A stretch of DNA of 64,000 bases, from NCBI GenBank assembly GCA_958295945.1, contig OY282386.1, forward strand, positions 124,001 through 188,000, given 5' to 3'. Every line of letters begins with the position of its first letter. The first letter of the stretch is position 1. The translations under genes and the position numbers were made by a program. The notes below the pieces were generated by a model. The model searched no databases. It saw only the letters and a list, made by a program, of their open reading frames with translations, and was not told the origin of the DNA. Of this stretch, positions 19,083 to 33,425 are shown in pieces. The DNA comes from Candidatus Poribacteria bacterium. GTDB taxonomy: Bacteria; Poribacteria; WGA-4E; WGA-3G.

Positions 19083-19202
19083 CTTCTTTCTATAGTATAC
19101 TTTAGAATTACTTGAACATTTCAACTGCTTCGGTTCCGCTCCCCTCGCTTGCTGGGAATAAAAGAGGTTTTTAAATAGAATGGTCCTACAAAGGAGAATC
19201 TG

Positions 19203-19637
19203 ATGAACGATCAAGCATTCCGAAAACATATCTTAACATTTATCGCTAAGTCAGAACAGTGGATGCAGGATGTGAATAAAAAACTTGATGTTATTGATGA
19301 TTTACAGCAACAAGTGACAACAATGCGTAATAGGTTGGAAGACCCGCGAGAATCTGAAGACGAAAAACGAGATGCAGCGAATAGAGATGAAGAAACACAG
19401 GAAACCGATCCGCTCCTCGCGCTTGCGGGGACACTTAAATGGGATGATATAAGTGGTCCTAACACCGTATCACTGCCGGAGATACGAGTAATTAAAGGAT
19501 CACACGAAGACAATCCGGATCCGCTCCTCGCTCTTGCGGGAACGCTGCAATCTGATGTTGCTGACATCGGTGAACGTCACGATGACTACATTGCAGCTGC
19601 TTTACTTGCAGAGTTACGAGGAGATAAGGATGAATAA
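19203..19637 (+). CDS. Antitoxin of a PIN-toxin pair, copy 1, with duplicated DPLLALAGTL block
   Basis: The 144-residue protein has an N-terminal coiled-coil-like helix (MQDVNKKLDVIDDLQQQV), an acidic linker, and two copies of DPLLALAGTL (about residues 75-84 and 105-114). The second runs into ADIGERHDDYIAAALLAEL, the usual C-terminus of short antitoxins that accompany PIN-domain toxins. A good ribosome site (AAAGGAGAATCTG) precedes the ATG. It overlaps the toxin gene by eight bases (ATGAATAA), the typical coupling of toxin-antitoxin pairs. Almost identical to copy 2 at 21386. Confidence 0.78.
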   Translation: MNDQAFRKHILTFIAKSEQWMQDVNKKLDVIDDLQQQVTTMRNRLEDPRESEDEKRDAANRDEETQETDPLLALAGTLKWDDISGPNTVSLPEIRVIKGSHEDNPDPLLALAGTLQSDVADIGERHDDYIAAALLAELRGDKDE

Positions 19638-20046
19638 GGTTTTCGCAGATACATCTGGGTGGGCGAGTTTTTTCCTTGAGGATGACCCCCATCATGCGAA
19701 AGCGTATTCGTTGATAAAACAGTGGAAACAACAAAACAGAAACGTCGTTACGACAAATTACGTTCTGAGTGAACTAATTGTTCTACTTAGCAGTTCACGT
19801 GGACAGCAGCGTTTAGCAGTTTTAAACTTTATTGAGACCATTTGATCAGATGATTGGGTCGAAATCCTTCATATAGACATAACATTGGACCAGAAAGCAT
19901 GGCAGTTGCTTGTAAGTCGATTGGATAAAAAGTGGAGTCTCGTTGACGCTGTTAGTTTTATTGTGATGGAAGAACGGGGCATGATTGAAGCCTTGACTGC
20001 AGATCATCACTTTGAACAAGCAGGATTTGTACGTCTTTTGAAATAA
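19630..20046 (+). pseudogene. PIN-domain toxin, copy 1, broken by a nonsense codon
   Basis: Compared with the intact copy at 21813, this gene has TGA at 19843-19845 where the other has CGA, a single C-to-T change. The frame then stays open to the normal stop at 20044-20046, so the full 138-residue reading is preserved apart from that codon. The truncated 71-residue product keeps the first acidic site (ADTSGW) and the SELIVLL Glu but loses the two downstream Asp residues (SLVDAVSF, LTADHHF) needed for PIN ribonuclease activity. It should be inactive while its antitoxin remains intact. Confidence 0.88.
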
Positions 20047-21264: not shown

Positions 21265-21385
21265 CTTCTTTCTATAGTATACTTTAGGATTACTTGAACA
21301 TTTCAACTACTTCGGTTCCGTTTCCCCTCGCTTGCGGTGAATAAAAAGGGCTCTTAAATAGAATGGTTCTACAAAGGAGAATCTG

Positions 21386-21820
21386 ATGAATGATCAAGCA
21401 TTCCGCGAACATATCTTAACATTTATCGCTAAGTCAGAACAGTGGATGCAGGATGTGAATAAAAAACTTGATGTTATTGACAATTTACAGCAACAAGTGT
21501 CATCAATGCGTAATAAATTGGAAGACCCGCGAGAATCTGAAGACGAAAAACGAGATGCAGCGAATGGAGATGAAGAAACACAGGAAACTGATCCCCTCCT
21601 TGCACTTGCGGGGACACTTAAATGGGATGATATAAGTGGTCCTAACACCGTATCACTGCCGGAGATACGAGTAATTAAAGGAGCACACGAAGACAATCCG
21701 GATCCGCTCCTCGCTCTTGCAGGAACGCTGCAATCTGATGTTGCTGACATCGGTGAACGTCACGATGACTACATTGCAGCTGCTTTACTTGCAGAGTTAC
21801 GAGGAGATAAGGATGAATAA
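21386..21820 (+). CDS. Antitoxin of a PIN-toxin pair, copy 2
   Basis: A 144-residue near-identical copy of the antitoxin at 19203 (a handful of substitutions, such as NLQQQVSS for DLQQQVTT). It keeps the coiled-coil-like N-terminus, both DPLLALAGTL blocks and the IGERHDDYIAAALLAEL tail. The ATG follows AAAGGAGAATCTG. It overlaps the intact toxin by eight bases. Because the copies are so alike, each antitoxin probably neutralises the product of either toxin locus. Confidence 0.78.
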   Translation: MNDQAFREHILTFIAKSEQWMQDVNKKLDVIDNLQQQVSSMRNKLEDPRESEDEKRDAANGDEETQETDPLLALAGTLKWDDISGPNTVSLPEIRVIKGAHEDNPDPLLALAGTLQSDVADIGERHDDYIAAALLAELRGDKDE

Positions 21821-22229
21821 GGTTTTCGTAGATACATCCGGATGGGCAAGTTTTTTTCTTGAGGATGATCCCCATCATACGAAAGCGTATTCATTGATAG
21901 AACAGTGGAAACAACAAAACATACAGGTTGTTACGACAAATTACGTTCTGAGTGAATTAATTGTTCTACTTAGCGGTTCACGGGGGCAGCAGCGTTCAGT
22001 TGTTTTACACTTTATTAAGAACATTCGATCAGCCGATTGGGTCGAAATTGTCCATATAGACGAATCATTAGACGCTGAAGCGTGGCAGTTTCTGGCAAAT
22101 CGTTTGGATAAAAAATGGAGTCTCGTTGACGCTGTGAGTTTTGTTGTGATGCAAGAACGTGAAATGACAGAAGCATTAACTGCAGATCATCACTTTGAGC
22201 AAGCAGGATTTGTCCGTCTTTTGAAATAA
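21813..22229 (+). CDS. PIN-domain toxin (VapC-like ribonuclease), copy 2, intact
   Basis: A 138-residue PIN-domain protein. PIN ribonucleases cut RNA with a cluster of acidic residues: here Asp in FVDTSGWASFF (residue 7), Glu in YVLSELIVLL (about 48), Asp in KWSLVDAVSFVVM (about 101) and Asp in LTADHHFEQAGF (about 120). The ATG overlaps the antitoxin stop (ATGAATAA), consistent with coupled translation. It lies 17 bp before hsdM. The target RNA cannot be inferred. Confidence 0.85.
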   Translation: MNKVFVDTSGWASFFLEDDPHHTKAYSLIEQWKQQNIQVVTTNYVLSELIVLLSGSRGQQRSVVLHFIKNIRSADWVEIVHIDESLDAEAWQFLANRLDKKWSLVDAVSFVVMQEREMTEALTADHHFEQAGFVRLLK

Positions 22230-22246
22230 TACATTGAGGTAAGATA

Positions 22247-23713
22247 ATGTCAAACGAATCAGCAACAATCGTCCAAAAACTATGGAATTTCTGTAATGTA
22301 CTCCGAGATGATGGAGTCAGTTACGGAGATTACGTTGAACAACTCACATATCTACTTTTTCTCAAACTCGCTGACGAACAGAGCAAACTACCTACCAACA
22401 CATCATCCAAAATACCTTCTGGTTTGGATTGGGAAAGTTTGCTCAAAGAAAGCGGTGCTGCGTTAGAGGATCAGTATGTCAAAATCCTGCGAGAATTGAG
22501 TAATGAGAAAGGGTTGCTTGGTGTTATCTTCCGAAAATCGCAAAACCGCATTCAGACACCTGCACACTTACAACGGCTTATCAAGCTAATTGATGCGGAA
22601 AACTGGAGCGGGATGGCAGCCGATGTCAAAGGTACAATTTATGAAGGACTTTTGCAGAAAAACGCTGAAGACACAAAAAGCGGCGCAGGACAATACTTCA
22701 CACCCCGACCACTCATCAAAGCAATAGTTGAAGTGATGCAACCTAAACCGATGAAAACGATATGTGATCCTGCATGCGGTACAGGTGGTTTTTTCCTTGC
22801 TGCTTATGAGTATATTTCAGAAACATATCGAACAACATTAACTCGTGAACAGAAAAAGTTTCTGAGATTTGATACGTTCACCGGAACAGACATCGTTGAT
22901 AACGTTGTTCGTCTCTGTGTAATGAATTTATACTTGCACGGTATTGATGGAGCAGAAAGTCCAATTACAACCAACGATAGTCTCGCCAAGGATACAGGAG
23001 ATCACTACGATATGGTGCTGACAAATCCACCGTTTGGTAACAAAAGTAGCGTTACGATCACTACTGATGGCGAAAAACGTAGCAACGCATCCGTCACGTA
23101 TGAACGCGATGACTTTTGGTCTACGACTTCAAATAAGCAGTTTAACTTCCTGCAACACATTAAAACGATTTTGAAGGAAGATGGTCGTGCCGCCGTAGTC
23201 CTACCAGATAACGTGCTTTTTGAACGGGGCGCGGGTGAAACGATTCGACGCCAATTACTAAAACTTTTTGATGTCCATACGTTGTTGCGATTGCCTACTG
23301 GTATTTTTTACGCACAAGGTGTGAAAGCAAACGTCCTCTTTTTTGATAAACGACCCGCACGTGAGGAACCTTGGACAAAAAAACTATGGATATATGACCT
23401 TCGCACGAATAAACATTTTACGCTCAAAACCAATCCATTACGGGATGCAGATCTACAAGATTTTATTGATGTCTATAAAGCTGAGAACCGGCATGCTCGT
23501 GTTAACACAGAACGTTTCCGTTCCTTCAGCTATGAAGAACTAACACAACGGGAACATGCAAACCTTGATATTTTCTGGTTGAAAGATGACTCAACTGAGG
23601 ATGTTGCGGATCTACCAACTCCGGATATATTAGCAGCGGAAATAACACAAAGTTTAGAATCTGCTTTAGAATTATTTCAAAATATCCAAGCAGAATTAGG
23701 AGACAGCGACTAA
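22247..23713 (+). CDS. hsdM: Type I restriction-modification methyltransferase subunit
   Basis: HsdM methylates adenine (N6) at sites chosen by HsdS. The N-terminal HsdM helical domain (IVQKLWNFCNVLRDDGVSYGDYV) precedes the SAM-binding motif DPACGTGGFF (about 174-183) and the catalytic NPPF (about 259-262). GQYFTPRPLIKAIV before motif I is typical. Length 488 is normal. GAGGTAAGATA precedes the ATG. The only hsdS visible is a truncated one 5 kb upstream, and there is no hsdR, so the system is at best an orphan methylase and perhaps inactive here. Confidence 0.94.
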   Translation: MSNESATIVQKLWNFCNVLRDDGVSYGDYVEQLTYLLFLKLADEQSKLPTNTSSKIPSGLDWESLLKESGAALEDQYVKILRELSNEKGLLGVIFRKSQNRIQTPAHLQRLIKLIDAENWSGMAADVKGTIYEGLLQKNAEDTKSGAGQYFTPRPLIKAIVEVMQPKPMKTICDPACGTGGFFLAAYEYISETYRTTLTREQKKFLRFDTFTGTDIVDNVVRLCVMNLYLHGIDGAESPITTNDSLAKDTGDHYDMVLTNPPFGNKSSVTITTDGEKRSNASVTYERDDFWSTTSNKQFNFLQHIKTILKEDGRAAVVLPDNVLFERGAGETIRRQLLKLFDVHTLLRLPTGIFYAQGVKANVLFFDKRPAREEPWTKKLWIYDLRTNKHFTLKTNPLRDADLQDFIDVYKAENRHARVNTERFRSFSYEELTQREHANLDIFWLKDDSTEDVADLPTPDILAAEITQSLESALELFQNIQAELGDSD

Positions 23714-24603: not shown

Positions 24604-24617
24604 GTTGACTTGATCCC

Positions 24618-24649
24618 GTATCAGTGGGGAAGATCTTCCCCACTGATAC
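24618..24649. terminator. Perfect 32-bp palindrome after the LamG gene
   Basis: GTATCAGTGGGGAA and its complement meet at GATC, giving a 14-pair stem 15 bp after the stop. GC-rich in the core, so it probably terminates transcription, though only a weak T tract follows. It also argues against the longer upstream start of the next gene. Confidence 0.55.
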
Positions 24650-24720
24650 ATTACTCAAAAAAATTATTGAACGCTTTCATATTTTATACAGATGCACGTG
24701 CATGCCATATACTTCTATAC

Positions 24721-27138
24721 ATGAATACCTTTGAAATCATTGAAGACATCCTCAATTGTCCACTTGAAGACATCACAGAAGGAATGGATGTAAATCCAGA
24801 TACATTACATACCTTCCTTAATTCATTACCATCGGATAGTCTTGAAACATACCTGTCCCCTCAATGGGTAGTTCTTGCTGCAGGCAAAGGTACACGTATA
24901 GATCCAACAGGACGTTTTAGCAAAACATTAGATATTATGCTTGGCGAAAAGAATGTGTTGCAGCTATCACGTCAATATCTACCGGGAAATCTCCCACATA
25001 TTATCGTCATCAACCCACAAACGGCAAATCGTCTTACCAATAGCAATTCTGTTGAATACTTATTGGGTCCAAATACAATCACATGCATTCAAGAAGAAAT
25101 GAATGGAACAGGTGGTGCATTACAAGCTGCCCTCCCTGAAATCCAAAAGTCAGACGCTGAATGGATTGGTGTTTCATTTGGTGACGAACCTTTTTTGGAT
25201 AGAACCATCTTTGCTCAGACATGGTTATCACATTTCATGTCAGGGGCGGACGTTACTTTATGTGGAAAAACACCCGAAACTGTTGAGGACAAAGGTGGAC
25301 TATTCTTTGACGCAGAAGGAAGATTCCTTGAAACAAAAGAATGGTACGATATGACAGCGTCCGAAAAAGACAAAATGTGGGAAAGGTTGAAATGTGGTGA
25401 GGCATATACAAATACGGGGATAACAATCATTCGAAAGAGCGCATTAATTGAAAGAATACATCACTTGCAGCCACATGCAAATCGCAACGACGAACGCCAC
25501 CACGTTGATCTAATTCGTCTCTGTTATGAGGATGGATTAAAGACGAATGCCTTTATCTATCGCGGTGAAGTTTTGTCAGGAGTGAATCGATGGTCAAATG
25601 TCCTGTCTGGTGAGACTGACATCTATGCAAGAAATCGCAATCTCCTTGTGCAGCAAGGAATTCGTGTTGATCCTGCAGCGCAGATTACTTTGGATAGTGA
25701 TGATATTGAAATTGGGTCAGCATGCCACTTAATTGGTAGAGTTCATATTGGTAAGGATGTAAAAATAGGTGATTACTGTAGACTCGAAGATGTTACATTG
25801 ACAGGGGCATCCAATATAGGAGACTCAGTCGGTCTACAGAATGTAACTGCTAAGGATACAACTATTCAATCAAATGTTTTACCAACAGCGTTGGCAGAAC
25901 CGCTCACTGGTCTCTCAACTACAAGTTATATTCTCAATAGTACATTTGATGGTGTGACTATCGGGGCAGGTGTTGAATTAACAGACATTAAGGCACATAT
26001 AACAGTTATCCCTTCTGGGATTAGACTGAAGAACCAAACAATTGGTGTGCCTTATGCTAAAACACCCCATGGAGTTTCAGCAACACTTTTCAACAAAATA
26101 ATACCAGAAGATTACAGACCTGGTGTCTACACCTTTGGTGAAAAAAAAGATTTACCCGATTGGAATAATCTACGCAATCATGTCAGTTCACATAGTGCAT
26201 CGGAGTTAATTCCGCGGGCAACCAAAGACCCACAACTACAACAAGACGTATCTATTGCTGTAAATACTTTGTTGGACATGCTTCGTGTTAACGGAGACTA
26301 TCTAATTGAACCGCTCACAGCCGAAGAATTGTGGGGAACAATATTTGAGATGGTTCAGTTATATACAGGAAATCCTAATCCTTATGTTCACGACAAACTA
26401 AAAGCACGACAAACGGCACTCTCACTACTACCTGAGTTCTGGAATGAACAATGGTTGACGAGGTTAAAACTTGTAGTCTCAGGAAATGTCATTGATTACA
26501 GCAGTGCGCGGGTTGTTGAAAAAGTAAATGCAAATCCAAATTATTTCTCTCAGGCACTCCGTGCAGCAGTTGAAACACCTTTTGCTATAGACTGTTATGA
26601 TATGTTTATGGAGAAAGTCATTGAAGGGAAACCCAAACAAATTATGTGGCTTGCTGACAATGATGGGGAAATCATATTTGATATGGCATTGATTCAAGAC
26701 CTGATAAAGTGTGGACATCGGATAAGTATAGTTGGCAAAGCAGACAACGCAAGTAACGATGTTACTTTAGCAGATTTACATGACATCACGTCCTACCCGC
26801 AATTTGCCTCAATAAAACAAGCATTACAGGATGGAGTTGTTACCCTTATTTCTTCAGGAGCAAAAACGATTGGCACAAACCTATATAATGCAACACCAGA
26901 ATTTGTAAATGAACTGTTACACACCGACTTGGTAATCTCAAAAGGTCAAGGCAATTTCTTTACAACACCCAGATGGAAAATGGATACTTTCTATCTCCTA
27001 ATGTCAAAAGGATTGACAGCAGAAAGAACAACGGGTGTGGTTGCAGATAGAAGTCTGCCAGTAGATGGTCTTATTTTAGCATATCTACCAGCAGAAACAA
27101 AAAGGGATGCACCCTTGTGCGATCTATGTAAGTCTTGA
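24721..27138 (+). CDS. Nucleotidyltransferase fused to DUF89 phosphatase domain
   Basis: An 805-residue multidomain protein. Residues about 45-300 are a GlmU/RmlA-like sugar nucleotidyltransferase (VVLAAGKGTR at about 51-60, GTGGALQAAL, GVSFGDEPFL). About 330-460 look like a left-handed beta-helix (IGSACHLIGRVHIGKDVKIG). From about 500 to the end is a DUF89/AF1104-like metal-dependent phosphatase domain: LKLVVSGNVIDYS, LADNDGEIIFD (about 643-653), NDVTLADL, ISSGAKTIG, LVISKGQGNFFT (about 737-748). DUF89 enzymes remove damaged or excess phosphometabolites. The fusion suggests making a nucleotide sugar and cleaning up its sugar phosphate. The 24610 start would cross the palindrome, so 24721 is preferred although no strong ribosome site is seen. 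Confidence 0.85.
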   Translation: MNTFEIIEDILNCPLEDITEGMDVNPDTLHTFLNSLPSDSLETYLSPQWVVLAAGKGTRIDPTGRFSKTLDIMLGEKNVLQLSRQYLPGNLPHIIVINPQTANRLTNSNSVEYLLGPNTITCIQEEMNGTGGALQAALPEIQKSDAEWIGVSFGDEPFLDRTIFAQTWLSHFMSGADVTLCGKTPETVEDKGGLFFDAEGRFLETKEWYDMTASEKDKMWERLKCGEAYTNTGITIIRKSALIERIHHLQPHANRNDERHHVDLIRLCYEDGLKTNAFIYRGEVLSGVNRWSNVLSGETDIYARNRNLLVQQGIRVDPAAQITLDSDDIEIGSACHLIGRVHIGKDVKIGDYCRLEDVTLTGASNIGDSVGLQNVTAKDTTIQSNVLPTALAEPLTGLSTTSYILNSTFDGVTIGAGVELTDIKAHITVIPSGIRLKNQTIGVPYAKTPHGVSATLFNKIIPEDYRPGVYTFGEKKDLPDWNNLRNHVSSHSASELIPRATKDPQLQQDVSIAVNTLLDMLRVNGDYLIEPLTAEELWGTIFEMVQLYTGNPNPYVHDKLKARQTALSLLPEFWNEQWLTRLKLVVSGNVIDYSSARVVEKVNANPNYFSQALRAAVETPFAIDCYDMFMEKVIEGKPKQIMWLADNDGEIIFDMALIQDLIKCGHRISIVGKADNASNDVTLADLHDITSYPQFASIKQALQDGVVTLISSGAKTIGTNLYNATPEFVNELLHTDLVISKGQGNFFTTPRWKMDTFYLLMSKGLTAERTTGVVADRSLPVDGLILAYLPAETKRDAPLCDLCKS

Positions 27139-28491
27139 AATCGTAAATTCCCTTTTCCCGGACCTTGAAAGAGGGATTTCTTCCACATACTTCACATCAA
27201 CAGACACATCTGTCCCCAGTTTTTCTTGAATCTTCAACACAATTTCATCACAAGTCTTCTCTGTCCATTCTCCATTAATCACAAGTTTCAATGTACACTC
27301 TTCAAAAGAGTCTTGAATTAATTGAAACTGCGAAACACCTTCAATGTTATAGAACTGTTGTGTGAAATACCCACCATGAACCAACATTCCACTTTTCGTG
27401 CGAAAGGTTGCAGTACTGCGACCCAGAAGTTCTGCTAATACCGGCAATTGATTGCCACACGGACATCTTTCGTTAGATAATCTTCCAATATCACCAATAC
27501 GATAACGTATGAACGGCATTGTCCAGTTGTTTAGTTGTGTGATGAGTATATCACCAGGTATCCTATATGGATCATCACTATCTATCTCAAAAAAAATGTC
27601 TCTGCAATTAATATGCATGCGTCCTTCACAACACTCCATTGCAATTAATCCTACCTCTCTGCCACCATACCTATTATATATCTTCGTGCCAAAGGTAGAT
27701 TCAGCTAACGTCCTATAATGTGGATACAACATCTCCGCAGAAGAAATAATTCCTTTTAAATCCCAGTTAGGTTTCAGATTCTGTTCATTGAGGTATTTTG
27801 CAAACTGATGTAGAGAGGAAGGATATGCCAGAATTGTCTTGGGTTGCCACTGTCGCATCTTCTCAAATGTTGTGTGCATTGCTGTTTCTGTAAGCTGAAA
27901 TCCATCAAGCCAAAACTGATTTCTCCAATAACGGTTCAGTTTCTGTTTCCAACGACTACCTGTGTTTACATCTGCAGGTGCACCCCAAATAACTAACTGC
28001 GGTTCTCCAAAATCCCATCCTCCCCATCTGTCAAAATAATAGACACTTAGATTCCTTTGATTCCAATAGGTTCTATCCTGATAGAACTTCAACGGAGTGC
28101 CTGTAGAACCACCCGTAGCATTCTCAATCCGTTTTTGGTCTGGAGATATATCAGAAAGAAGATTGTGCAGCTGATCACGTATAGATTTCTTTTCAAGTGG
28201 TGGAATTATGGATATGTCAGTTGAATCCGTAGAAAATAACTGTGTCAAGTCATCGTGGCTCAATCCAATGTCTATTAACAGATCACGGTAGTAAGGAGTT
28301 GTTTGGACAGCATGCTGAATGAGTTGTCGGACGCGAGTCCTCTGATATTCCAATATATTATCACGAGAGGAATTGAACAAAGTCTCTGTTTTTGAGTATT
28401 GAGAGGGAAAGGATAGACCCTTACGGTAGGTATTATATGTACACCAAGCAGCTTTTGAGATCAACACTTTGGTTGAACGATGAATTAACAT
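27124..28491 (-). CDS. CapK/PaaK-like AMP-dependent ligase family protein
   Basis: A 455-residue member of the phenylacetate-CoA ligase/CapK superfamily. The P-loop-like adenylation motif ATGGSTGTPLKF lies near residues 124-135. Also seen: NRYGGREVGLIAMEC, FIRYRIGDIGRL and a Cys-containing CPCGNQLPVLAELLGR block typical of CapK-like members. Members activate acids as AMP esters; those near sugar genes often modify surface polysaccharides. The 3' end overlaps the convergent fusion gene by 15 bases. The substrate is unknown. Confidence 0.85.
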   Translation of the reverse strand: MLIHRSTKVLISKAAWCTYNTYRKGLSFPSQYSKTETLFNSSRDNILEYQRTRVRQLIQHAVQTTPYYRDLLIDIGLSHDDLTQLFSTDSTDISIIPPLEKKSIRDQLHNLLSDISPDQKRIENATGGSTGTPLKFYQDRTYWNQRNLSVYYFDRWGGWDFGEPQLVIWGAPADVNTGSRWKQKLNRYWRNQFWLDGFQLTETAMHTTFEKMRQWQPKTILAYPSSLHQFAKYLNEQNLKPNWDLKGIISSAEMLYPHYRTLAESTFGTKIYNRYGGREVGLIAMECCEGRMHINCRDIFFEIDSDDPYRIPGDILITQLNNWTMPFIRYRIGDIGRLSNERCPCGNQLPVLAELLGRSTATFRTKSGMLVHGGYFTQQFYNIEGVSQFQLIQDSFEECTLKLVINGEWTEKTCDEIVLKIQEKLGTDVSVDVKYVEEIPLSRSGKREFTISRLT

Positions 28492-30423: not shown

Positions 30424-31326
30424 ATGTCAATAAGATCAACCCGTATCGTACTCGCGATACTATACTCTCTCTTCTTGTTCGGAATAGTTAATAATAGTCT
30501 GGCAATAGAGATTGTGGATTTTCCATCTAACACTGAAGACACTTCTTATAACGGCTACACATACCACATGGCTTATGTAAAAACAGATGTGCCTATTTAT
30601 CATGTCAATTGGTATATTGATGACGTGATTGCATACAGTGAGACATTAGACTCAACCACAAAACGTGCCAGTTACTTTCCTTGCTATGATCCAACTTCAA
30701 GTGCTAAAATACCCGGCAGGGTTAAAGGCACAAAGTATAAGATCAGTGTAAAAGTGTGGGCATGGGATGCCGATGATGAAGTATTTCGCTCCGCAACTGC
30801 TTCCTACACAGTGAAAATGTTTGAACCCATCTATTTGTATAAACAAGGTGAAAAAACAGGTGCCTGGGGCAGTGTAGAAATCTCGCGTTTCTACTATAAT
30901 GGTTCGGACATTGTTATGAGTGCTTCCGCCTATGCCTCTAACCCAAGCGATAATCCAAAGGCAGGGGACCTTGATAAGTTCCCGCTTACAGTTTTGCCGT
31001 GGTTCTGGACGCAAAAATACCCTGCCCCCGATGGTAACGCGTCAGATGAACATCGAGACACCAAAGACTCCGAAACTATTGACCTTGGTGAATCCTCTCA
31101 GTATTATAACCCAGGACCTGATAGACAAGCGCAAATTGGTGGTCCCGATGTTGGACCATTCCATCGTAATATCGGCGTACTTGAAGAAGGGGAGCGGCGT
31201 TATTTTAAGGCACACGCGCACCTTCAGGTGTATGGTGCTCGGACAGGAACAGACGACTGGGAAGTAGACACACAACAACAGACAGGTACAGCTGCTGTGA
31301 CGTTTACTTGGGAAGATGGTCCATAA
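30424..31326 (+). CDS. Secreted protein of unknown function
   Basis: A 300-residue protein with a signal peptide (residues 1-27, IVLAILYSLFLFGIVNNSLA). The mature part is beta-rich: two Ig-like blocks are suggested by YHVNWYIDDVIAYSET and YKISVKVWAWDADDEVF. A Pro/Asp/Asn-rich region follows. No catalytic motif, no C-terminal TWG motif. It starts 58 bp before the TolB-like pair and may share their transcript. No convincing ribosome site precedes the ATG. Confidence 0.75.
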   Translation: MSIRSTRIVLAILYSLFLFGIVNNSLAIEIVDFPSNTEDTSYNGYTYHMAYVKTDVPIYHVNWYIDDVIAYSETLDSTTKRASYFPCYDPTSSAKIPGRVKGTKYKISVKVWAWDADDEVFRSATASYTVKMFEPIYLYKQGEKTGAWGSVEISRFYYNGSDIVMSASAYASNPSDNPKAGDLDKFPLTVLPWFWTQKYPAPDGNASDEHRDTKDSETIDLGESSQYYNPGPDRQAQIGGPDVGPFHRNIGVLEEGERRYFKAHAHLQVYGARTGTDDWEVDTQQQTGTAAVTFTWEDGP

Positions 31327-31384
31327 ACCTATTACAACGGCAGGGGACACGTTCCCCTGCCACTCTTTTTTAAGGAGCATACCT

Positions 31385-32389
31385 ATGAACACACGAAAAG
31401 TTATTTTGCTCTGTTGGGTCGGACTGCTACTCGCAACCGCAGCCCATGCCAAAATCGTTTTTAGCTCTACACGCGATGGGGTAAAAGGTGTCTACCTGAT
31501 GGACGATGACGGTAGCAACCAGACACTTATTAGGCACCAGAACGACAGGCTGGTACCCTTCCCATATTGCTGGTCGCCTGATGGCACACAAATACTGATT
31601 CAGACTTACGGGTTGTCTTTGATGAATGCAGATGGCACAAATGTTCGGGAACTTATAGGTAGGGGCTTTGGAGGTTCTATCGGCAGAGGTTCATTTTCAC
31701 CAGACGGTAAAAATATCGCTTTTGAGGGACTTTTTAACCACGGGGTGGAACACGGCATATATGTCCTAAATATACGGACCTTAGAGATGGAAGCAATCGC
31801 ACCGCAAGTTATGTTAAACAATCCTGATTGGTCGCCGGACGGTAAGCATATTATTTGCGATGAATGGAACACGTTCGGAGTCCATACCACGATTTGGATC
31901 ATGGATGCCGATGGTCACGACCTCCGGAAACTGATACCGACACCTGTAGGCGGGGAAGGGGAATTCACGATTGAACGTGGAAGACCGCGCTGGTCACCTG
32001 ATGGTCAACGGATTGTGTTTCACCAGCAAGAGTGGGTAGATGGGTCTTTTTACAAGGCGTTTCGGTATATAATATGTGATCGCAACGGAGAGAACAGCAA
32101 ACAGCTCCGAATACCGAAGGACATGCAAGGGATTAGCCTTAGCTGGATGGATGACGGCGAATCCATCGTTTTTAGTGCGGTTGCCCCCATACCTTTGAAC
32201 GTAAAACTACCGGAGGATTTTAAGGAACCAAATGCCAATATCTATAAGTATCATATCTGGACGAACAAAATGACACGACTTACAAACCACCCAGGCATGG
32301 ATCAAACATTAGACTGGATCAGCGATGATGTGCTACCAGTATCTCCACAAGGCAAAAAAAAAGTGACGTGGGGAAAACTCAAGCAGTAG
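31385..32389 (+). CDS. Secreted TolB-like beta-propeller protein, first of a tandem pair
   Basis: A 334-residue protein; the ATG preceded by AAGGAGCATACCT is chosen over a longer frame. Signal peptide residues 1-22 (ILLCWVGLLLATAAHA). The body has repeated WD40/PD40-type blades with the hallmark (W/F)SPDG: KIVFSSTRDG, CWSPDGTQI, SFSPDGKNIAFEG, DWSPDGKHIICDE, RWSPDGQRIVFH. Such propellers bind proteins or ligands in the periplasm or outside. It ends SPQGKKKVTWGKLKQ, a variant of the shared motif. The next gene is a near-identical copy. Confidence 0.88.
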   Translation: MNTRKVILLCWVGLLLATAAHAKIVFSSTRDGVKGVYLMDDDGSNQTLIRHQNDRLVPFPYCWSPDGTQILIQTYGLSLMNADGTNVRELIGRGFGGSIGRGSFSPDGKNIAFEGLFNHGVEHGIYVLNIRTLEMEAIAPQVMLNNPDWSPDGKHIICDEWNTFGVHTTIWIMDADGHDLRKLIPTPVGGEGEFTIERGRPRWSPDGQRIVFHQQEWVDGSFYKAFRYIICDRNGENSKQLRIPKDMQGISLSWMDDGESIVFSAVAPIPLNVKLPEDFKEPNANIYKYHIWTNKMTRLTNHPGMDQTLDWISDDVLPVSPQGKKKVTWGKLKQ

Positions 32390-32420
32390 AACCGACAAAA
32401 TCAAATTAAGAAGCAGAACT

Positions 32421-33425
32421 ATGAATACACGAAAAGTTATTTTGCTCTGTTGGGTCGGACTGCTACTCGCAACCGCAGCCCATGCCAAAATCGTTTTTAG
32501 CTCTACACGCGATGGAGGAGATGGTATCTACGTTATGGACGATGACGGTAGCAATCAGACACTTATTAGGCAATCTAAGGACGGACTGGTACCCTTCCCA
32601 TATTGCTGGTCGCCTGATGGCACACAAATACTGATTCAGACTTACGGGTTGTCTTTGATGAATGCAGATGGCACAAATGTTCGGAAACTTATAGGTAGGG
32701 GCTTTGGAGGTTCTATCGGCAGAGGTTCATTTTCACCAGACGGCAAAAATATCGCTTTTGAGGGACTTTTTAACCACGGGGCGGAACACGGCATATATGT
32801 CATAAATATACGGACTTTAGAGATGGAAGCAATCGCACCGCAAGTTATGTTAAACAATCCTGATTGGTCGCCGGACGGTAAGCATATTATTTGCGATGAA
32901 TGGAACACGTTCGGAGTCCATACCACGATTTGGATCATGGATGCCGATGGTCACGACCTCCGGAAACTGATACCGACACCTGTAGGCGGGGAAGGGGAAT
33001 TCACGATTGAACGCGGAAGACCGCGCTGGTCACCTGATGGTCAACGGATTGTGTTTCACCAGCAAGAGTGGATAGATGGGTCTTTTTACAAGGCGTTTCG
33101 GTATATAATATGTGATCGCAACGGAGAGAACAGCAAACAACTCCGGATACCGAAGGACATGAAAGGGATTAGCCTTAGCTGGATGGATGACGGTGAATCC
33201 ATCGTTTTTAGTGCGCGTGCGCCCATACCTGTAAACGTAAAACTACCGGAGGATTTTGAAGCCCCAAATGCCAATATCTATAAGTATCATATCTGGACGA
33301 ACAAAATGACACGACTTACAAACCACCCCGGCACGGATGAAACAATAGACTGGATCAGCGATGATGTGCTACCAGTATCCCCACAAGGCAAAAAAAAAGT
33401 AACGTGGGGAAAACTCAAGCAGTAG
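32421..33425 (+). CDS. Secreted TolB-like beta-propeller protein, second of a tandem pair
   Basis: A copy of the preceding gene with the same length of 334 residues and about 95 percent identity by eye. Differences cluster near residues 31-35 (GDGIYVM for VKGVYLM), around 55 and near 280-320. It has the same signal peptide, the same SPDG blades and an identical C-terminal VSPQGKKKVTWGKLKQ. The 31-bp gap lacks a terminator, so both are probably co-transcribed. A strong terminator follows. A recent tandem duplication. Confidence 0.88.
   Translation: MNTRKVILLCWVGLLLATAAHAKIVFSSTRDGGDGIYVMDDDGSNQTLIRQSKDGLVPFPYCWSPDGTQILIQTYGLSLMNADGTNVRKLIGRGFGGSIGRGSFSPDGKNIAFEGLFNHGAEHGIYVINIRTLEMEAIAPQVMLNNPDWSPDGKHIICDEWNTFGVHTTIWIMDADGHDLRKLIPTPVGGEGEFTIERGRPRWSPDGQRIVFHQQEWIDGSFYKAFRYIICDRNGENSKQLRIPKDMKGISLSWMDDGESIVFSARAPIPVNVKLPEDFEAPNANIYKYHIWTNKMTRLTNHPGTDETIDWISDDVLPVSPQGKKKVTWGKLKQ

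Follow-up and report, generated by a model that had tools for sequence, protein, structure and literature searches.

A GlmU-type nucleotidyltransferase fused to a DUF89 phosphatase in one class of Poribacteria

The fusion gene and its surroundings

In the 64,000-nucleotide stretch of Candidatus Poribacteria DNA analysed here, which we call the window, we find an open frame at 24610-27138 on the forward strand, with an in-frame TTG at 24610 upstream of the ATG at 24721. Homologues align from about this ATG, supporting an 805-residue product (P0001; Table 1), whose gene lies within a single 5.34 Mb contig of the source genome and is single-copy there. The original prediction described one protein joining a nucleotidyltransferase and a beta-helix to a DUF89 phosphatase, and both the profile searches and the AlphaFold model examined with Foldseek confirm this; the three motifs that it quoted, LAAGKGTR, NDGEIIFD and KGQGNF, are all found in the protein. 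The AlphaFold model, made with 36 alignment rows, has a mean pLDDT of 82.8, being poor at the beta-helix (residues about 313-399) and good elsewhere.

Table 1. Coordinates of the fusion gene, its domains and motifs, and its convergent neighbour in the window
Feature	Residues	Position	Strand	Basis
Whole fusion gene (P0001)	805 aa	24721..27138	+	ATG at 24721; N-terminus matches homologues
N-terminal helical segment	1-46	24721..24858	+	Weak conservation, mean 31% identity
GlmU-type nucleotidyltransferase domain	47-300	24859..25620	+	Profiles, PDB matches, Foldseek
LAAGKGTR nucleotide-binding signature	52-59	24874..24897	+	Sequence, family alignment
GDEPF	154-158	25180..25194	+	D155 aligned to the Asp that binds metal in GlmU (GD-PL motif)
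Short hexapeptide left-handed beta-helix	about 326-390	25696..25890	+	Profiles; low model confidence
DUF89/ARMT1-like (PF01937) phosphatase domain	about 475-775	26143..27045	+	Profiles, PDB, model
DNDGE	646-650	26656..26670	+	D646/N647 match the metal-site D-N of DUF89
KGQGN, DUF89 signature	741-745	26941..26955	+	Sequence, family alignment
Convergent neighbour, 3' end overlap of 15 bases		27124..28491	-	PaaK/CapK AMP-dependent ligase-like by eye

Upon examining the N-terminal half, we found a Pfam match to NTP_transf_3 (PF12804) at residues 50-180 (E 4.9e-7, above cut-off) and a Hexapep match at residues 329-355, which with 23.8 bits is slightly below the cut-off of 27. The closest NCBIfam profile is that of GlmU (TIGR01173; residues 50-378, E 7e-24), to which the fusion scores 84.4-85.9 bits, far below the equivalog cut-off of 366.85; the archaeal-type sugar-1-phosphate nucleotidylyltransferase/acetyltransferase profile TIGR03992 gave 30.5 bits, below its cut-off of 292. 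Because the GlmU alignment, which covers profile positions 4-318 of 452, stops there, the fusion is without a GlmU-type acetyltransferase half and carries the short beta-helix and the DUF89 domain in that place. Sequence and profile searches of the PDB with this half returned GlmU structures of several bacteria, with other sugar nucleotidyltransferases aligning mainly over the first 100 residues, and GlmU structures also stood at the top when the model was searched with Foldseek. Each of the 15 catalytic-site positions tested in the transferase domain is retained in 30-34 of 34 diverse family members, with GxGxR, K68, Q124, G129, D155, E207, N231 and N289 invariant or nearly so, the catalytic roles being those generally ascribed to GlmU residues.

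The placement of a DUF89 domain at the C-terminus found strong support in the domain search run as a check, with a PF01937 match at residues 540-763 (E 2.5e-33; 116 bits against a cut-off of 25), and the damage-control phosphatase profile NF040824 also matched this half (E 2.6e-21), with a score below its cut-off. When the whole source genome was searched with PF01937, the fusion scored 118.7 bits and no second DUF89 gene was found. PDB searches returned PH1575 (2g8l), AF1104 (2ffj) and At2g17340, and Foldseek with the DUF89 half of the model placed it close to PH1575 (TMt 0.83) and AF1104 (TMt 0.79). The conserved metal and phosphate motifs (DN-GE, ND and KGQGN) are intact in the protein. The PF01937 match starts at profile position 56, and the N-terminal C-x-x-C segment, which is not known to be required for catalysis and which we did not count as family-defining, is not present in the fused domain; in the four stand-alone DUF89 proteins of Poribacteria, CxPC lies close to the N-terminus.

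Regarding the surroundings, the convergent neighbour has no Pfam match, and in 38 of 68 loci the fusion has ORFs related to it nearby; this neighbour is probably not part of the fusion system. The neighbours in the window (sulfatase, PaaK-like, HsdM and LamG) recur in only part of the loci and indicate no pathway, and with no gene neighbour common across families the gene order offers no operon evidence for one. Elsewhere in the window, we observe a duplicated module at 19140-19845 and 21323-22229, in which a near-identical 144-aa ORF precedes a PIN-domain gene in each copy, the PIN gene of the first copy being truncated (103 vs 170 aa); the module resembles a toxin-antitoxin pair that has been duplicated and partly broken. 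An HsdM-type N6 DNA methylase (22247-23713; PF02384, PF12161) directly follows the PIN gene, and no HsdS or HsdR was recognised beside it in the stretch read. Two tandem PD40/TolB-like beta-propeller proteins at 31316-33425, about 93% identical over a 300-nt stretch, are a recent duplication.

Distribution, selection and loss of the phosphatase site

Two conserved patterns, scanned against 84,980 species genomes, gave 67 loci, all recorded as Poribacteria; the patterns were derived from the fusion family itself, and a strongly diverged fusion elsewhere could escape them. Protein matches occur in 80 of the 85 Poribacteria genomes, or in 78 once G060 and G061 are removed, in which the match is to a stand-alone DUF89 only. 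Both halves lie in one frame in 75 genomes, and three more (G022, G054 and G059) hold fragments or copies cut by contig ends. By taxonomy, all the fusions found belong to families f1-f7 of one class of Poribacteria; the single f8 genome (79% complete) gave none, and neither did f9 and f10 outside the class, where stand-alone DUF89 genes occur. Of the high-quality genomes among the 85, G016 alone gave no match at all. Within this class the fusion gene is old, single-copy and nearly universal. A mobile or viral origin was also considered and rejected, with no relative in viral contigs and plasmid matches that span only one half each.

That two genes were joined by an assembly or sequencing error, a possibility which the original prediction had raised against itself, can be practically dismissed, and we found nothing in its favour. 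The single frame in those 75 independent genomes includes other single-contig assemblies (G024, G044 and G082-G084), and the fused DUF89 domains form one group, separate from the four stand-alone Poribacteria copies (support 100/100). The fusion is real and its architecture established.

Next to the transferase positions, we examined the DUF89 site, in which N589, D592, D646, N647, E650, D654, N679, D680 and KGQGN are intact in 32 of the 34 diverse members. Close pairs gave dN/dS ratios of 0.05-0.11 in the transferase and 0.07-0.09 in DUF89, compared with 0.12-0.26 in the helix and linker that separate the two; these ratios are approximate, with several dS values above 1. Strong purifying selection acts on both catalytic halves. 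The DUF89 site is lost, with the transferase site retained, in two deep lineages, represented by L032 (f6) and by L117/L033 (f7, the same gene). In the tree of the DUF89 half the end branches of the f6 and f7 rows are 2.7 and 4.3 vs a median of 0.16, and in the transferase tree they are 0.84 and 0.61; the phosphatase half is under relaxed constraint in these two families. Because the motifs are common to stand-alone DUF89 proteins, the loss is a derived state. The two families are not grouped on the transferase tree, where support is moderate (87/88 and 81/58), so that one loss and two losses cannot be told apart. Since the site was lost there while the transferase was retained, the phosphatase is dispensable in lineages f6 and f7.

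These results bear on two further readings. In the first, the enzyme would work in sequence, DUF89 dephosphorylating a bisphosphorylated sugar and the transferase then activating the sugar-1-phosphate, as a biosynthetic step. The order of phosphatase and then nucleotidyltransferase is known from the textbook heptose pathway, in which the phosphatase GmhB acts between the kinase and nucleotidyltransferase steps of ADP- and GDP-heptose synthesis; the fused phosphatase is as constrained as the transferase, which fits an obligatory step, and the source genome has an HddC/ManC-like transferase, so such pathways may exist there. However, the GlmU match spans the whole catalytic domain, whereas heptose and mannose transferases align chiefly over the first 100 residues, the fusion has no conserved gene for a kinase or isomerase next to it, and the retention of the transferase in two lineages that lost the phosphatase site is unlikely for a substrate-making step. 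The decay of DUF89 in f6 and f7 argues for an accessory role and against an obligatory sequential one, and we regard the sequential reading as unlikely.

In the second, DUF89 would sense sugar phosphates in a regulatory or structural role and do no important catalysis, as the retention of a domain remnant after loss of the catalytic residues in f6 and f7 might suggest. We consider this very improbable, given the intact metal and phosphate residues and low dN/dS of the domain in the rest of the family, and the decayed copies sit on very long branches, as expected once catalytic constraint is lost. Separately, we observe that G051 (f6), whose fused DUF89 is without catalytic residues, has a stand-alone DUF89 gene at L042:4440-5300, the neighbours of which indicate no clear pathway; no sugar nucleotidyltransferase was recognised beside the stand-alone DUF89 genes of f6 and the rest of the phylum.

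UDP-GlcNAc supply in Poribacteria

When searching for canonical GlmU, we found no match above the TIGR01173 cut-off in any of the 85 Poribacteria genomes, compared with 9 of 14 control genomes. For the alternative bacterial GlmU (TIGR03991), scores above the cut-off occur in five genomes only, namely G040 (f3), G051 and G055 (f6), G052 (f7) and G061 (f10), the source genome not being among them. The source genome encodes MurA (543 bits) and LpxA, both consumers of UDP-GlcNAc, and must therefore make this compound. Among single matches to the GlmU profile in this genome the fusion ranks first (85.9 bits), followed by an archaeal-GlmU-like two-domain protein (L046, G000:C1:2253765-2255132), which reaches 61.7 bits in its best piece and, scanned whole, 106.7 bits over two pieces, above the fusion. 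Against TIGR03992, L046 scores 209 bits, below the cut-off of 292. Its GxGxR motif reads GLGRK, and across the aligned orthologues the motif is altered to GLGRK (or GLGKK, in one case among those examined, GSGRK or GVGRK), and the Asn of the GlmU NTG motif is replaced in those examined. L046 is possibly an acetyltransferase with a weakened transferase half, and it could be the maker of UDP-GlcNAc in the source genome, most genomes of whose family contain it. At E <= 1e-25 no relatives of L046 were found in f2, in most of f4 (including G044) and in several f1 genomes. In G044 (f4; one contig, 98% complete), which has LpxA, the fusion is the only GlmU-profile match above 50 bits. Because of the lack of canonical GlmU, these absences of L046 and the G044 result, the fusion is the best candidate, judging by sequence, for the GlcNAc-1-phosphate uridylyltransferase, at least in f2 and f4.

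A broader proposal would have the fusion as the UDP-GlcNAc pyrophosphorylase of Poribacteria, replacing GlmU throughout the class, with the acetyltransferase half exchanged for a DUF89 phosphatase that polices the sugar phosphates of cell-wall precursor synthesis; we hold this tentatively, as a possibility more doubtful than probable. That the fusion is always the UDP-GlcNAc enzyme is weakened by f6 and f7, which also have an alternative GlmU, and for the same reason the idea that it simply replaced GlmU everywhere was not kept.

The fusion might instead serve another sugar (GalNAc, a uronic acid or a surface-glycan sugar specific to Poribacteria, for instance), guarded by DUF89, with UDP-GlcNAc coming from L046 or an unrecognised enzyme. 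Such a role would accord with the low GlmU score of 84 bits, a family-specific WYDM...TNTG region, the presence of L046 in most genomes of the source genome's family and the co-occurrence of fusion and alternative GlmU in f6 and f7. All GlmU sugar- and nucleotide-binding positions examined are, however, conserved in the fusion, and the altered GxGxR motif of L046 and the families and genomes in which no relative of it was found also speak against this role. We judge this alternative improbable, on a par with the sequential one.

Apart from these, we observe a second type of fusion, of a GHMP kinase (galactokinase-like) with a GlmU-type transferase, at L121:16-2265 and L128:2393-9149 (both G052), L129:6148-8595 (G051) and L130:1228-3876 (G053). 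In G052 it lies in a run with ackA- and pta-like genes, the alternative GlmU (TIGR03991) and a nagB-like gene, which suggests hexosamine salvage to a UDP-sugar. There may be a connection between the decay of DUF89 in f6 and f7 and two features of these families, the alternative GlmU and the galactokinase-like/transferase fusion, though it is a correlation over two lineages only.

Interpretation and comparison with known systems

Of the several readings, we find damage control the better one, namely that a UDP-GlcNAc-type pyrophosphorylase is tethered to a DUF89 phosphatase for overflow or damage control, and we are evenly balanced between accepting and doubting it. The first half, as a GlmU-type uridylyltransferase, would combine a nucleotide with a sugar-1-phosphate to give UDP-GlcNAc or a related UDP-sugar, the likeliest substrate being GlcNAc-1-phosphate or a closely similar hexosamine compound. 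The second half, as a metal-dependent DUF89 phosphatase, would hydrolyse sugar phosphates, and its tethering would let it remove surplus or wrong ones beside the transferase, which would then neither accumulate nor enter nucleotide sugars. What we infer is that the two halves have these activities, which sugar is used, that UTP is the nucleotide and that the fusion serves damage control; since the transferase reaches no more than 84-86 bits where the GlmU cut-off is 367, its sugar and nucleotide are not fixed. The view of the original prediction, that the transferase pathway generates a sugar phosphate or that one poisons it, is plausible.

To our knowledge, DUF89 enzymes are widespread and their bacterial substrates poorly known. 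A fusion that runs through a class names the partner reaction, and DUF89 substrates can thereby be searched for in one defined pathway. The fusion also bears on how Poribacteria, which have no canonical GlmU, make UDP-GlcNAc, and the two lineages that have lost only the DUF89 site offer a natural experiment for learning under what conditions the phosphatase can be dispensed with. The architecture, which the original prediction did not know as described, is new and built from two known families; no description of it was found in the open papers searched, with a mention in the founding DUF89 paper being possible.

Among known systems, GlmU (TIGR01173) resembles the fusion in that the whole N-terminal transferase domain aligns, the catalytic residues are identical and GlmU structures are the top Foldseek matches. 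The fusion differs in scoring below the equivalog cut-off, in having a short beta-helix and DUF89 instead of the acetyltransferase half, and in an extra WYDM region ahead of the NTG motif. The GHMP kinase fusion (L121, f6-f8) likewise joins a GlmU-type transferase to a sugar-phosphate enzyme in the same phylum, but that enzyme is a galactokinase-like kinase and not a phosphatase, and this fusion was not found in the source genome.

In the PANK4 architecture, a pantothenate kinase domain is joined to DUF89. The second half of the Poribacteria fusion shares its profile, metal and phosphate motifs and fold with the DUF89/ARMT1-like phosphatases (PH1575, AF1104, At2g17340, Ymr027w and ARMT1); in contrast to these it is fused to a nucleotidyltransferase, and it is without the N-terminal C-x-x-C of the stand-alone Poribacteria copies, apart from which the fused domains form their own clade. 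That DUF89 enzymes act on phosphometabolites, as the original prediction stated, is published (PMC8669784): fructose-1-phosphate is the preferred substrate of Ymr027w and human ARMT1, and oxidised 4'-phosphopantetheine is a substrate of PANK4. PMC4921024 also lists a fusion of DUF89 with the CoA pathway. The PANK4-type fusion is like the Poribacteria protein in joining DUF89 to an enzyme whose product or substrate is a phosphometabolite, whereas its partner enzyme, the pantothenate kinase, and its pathway are different.
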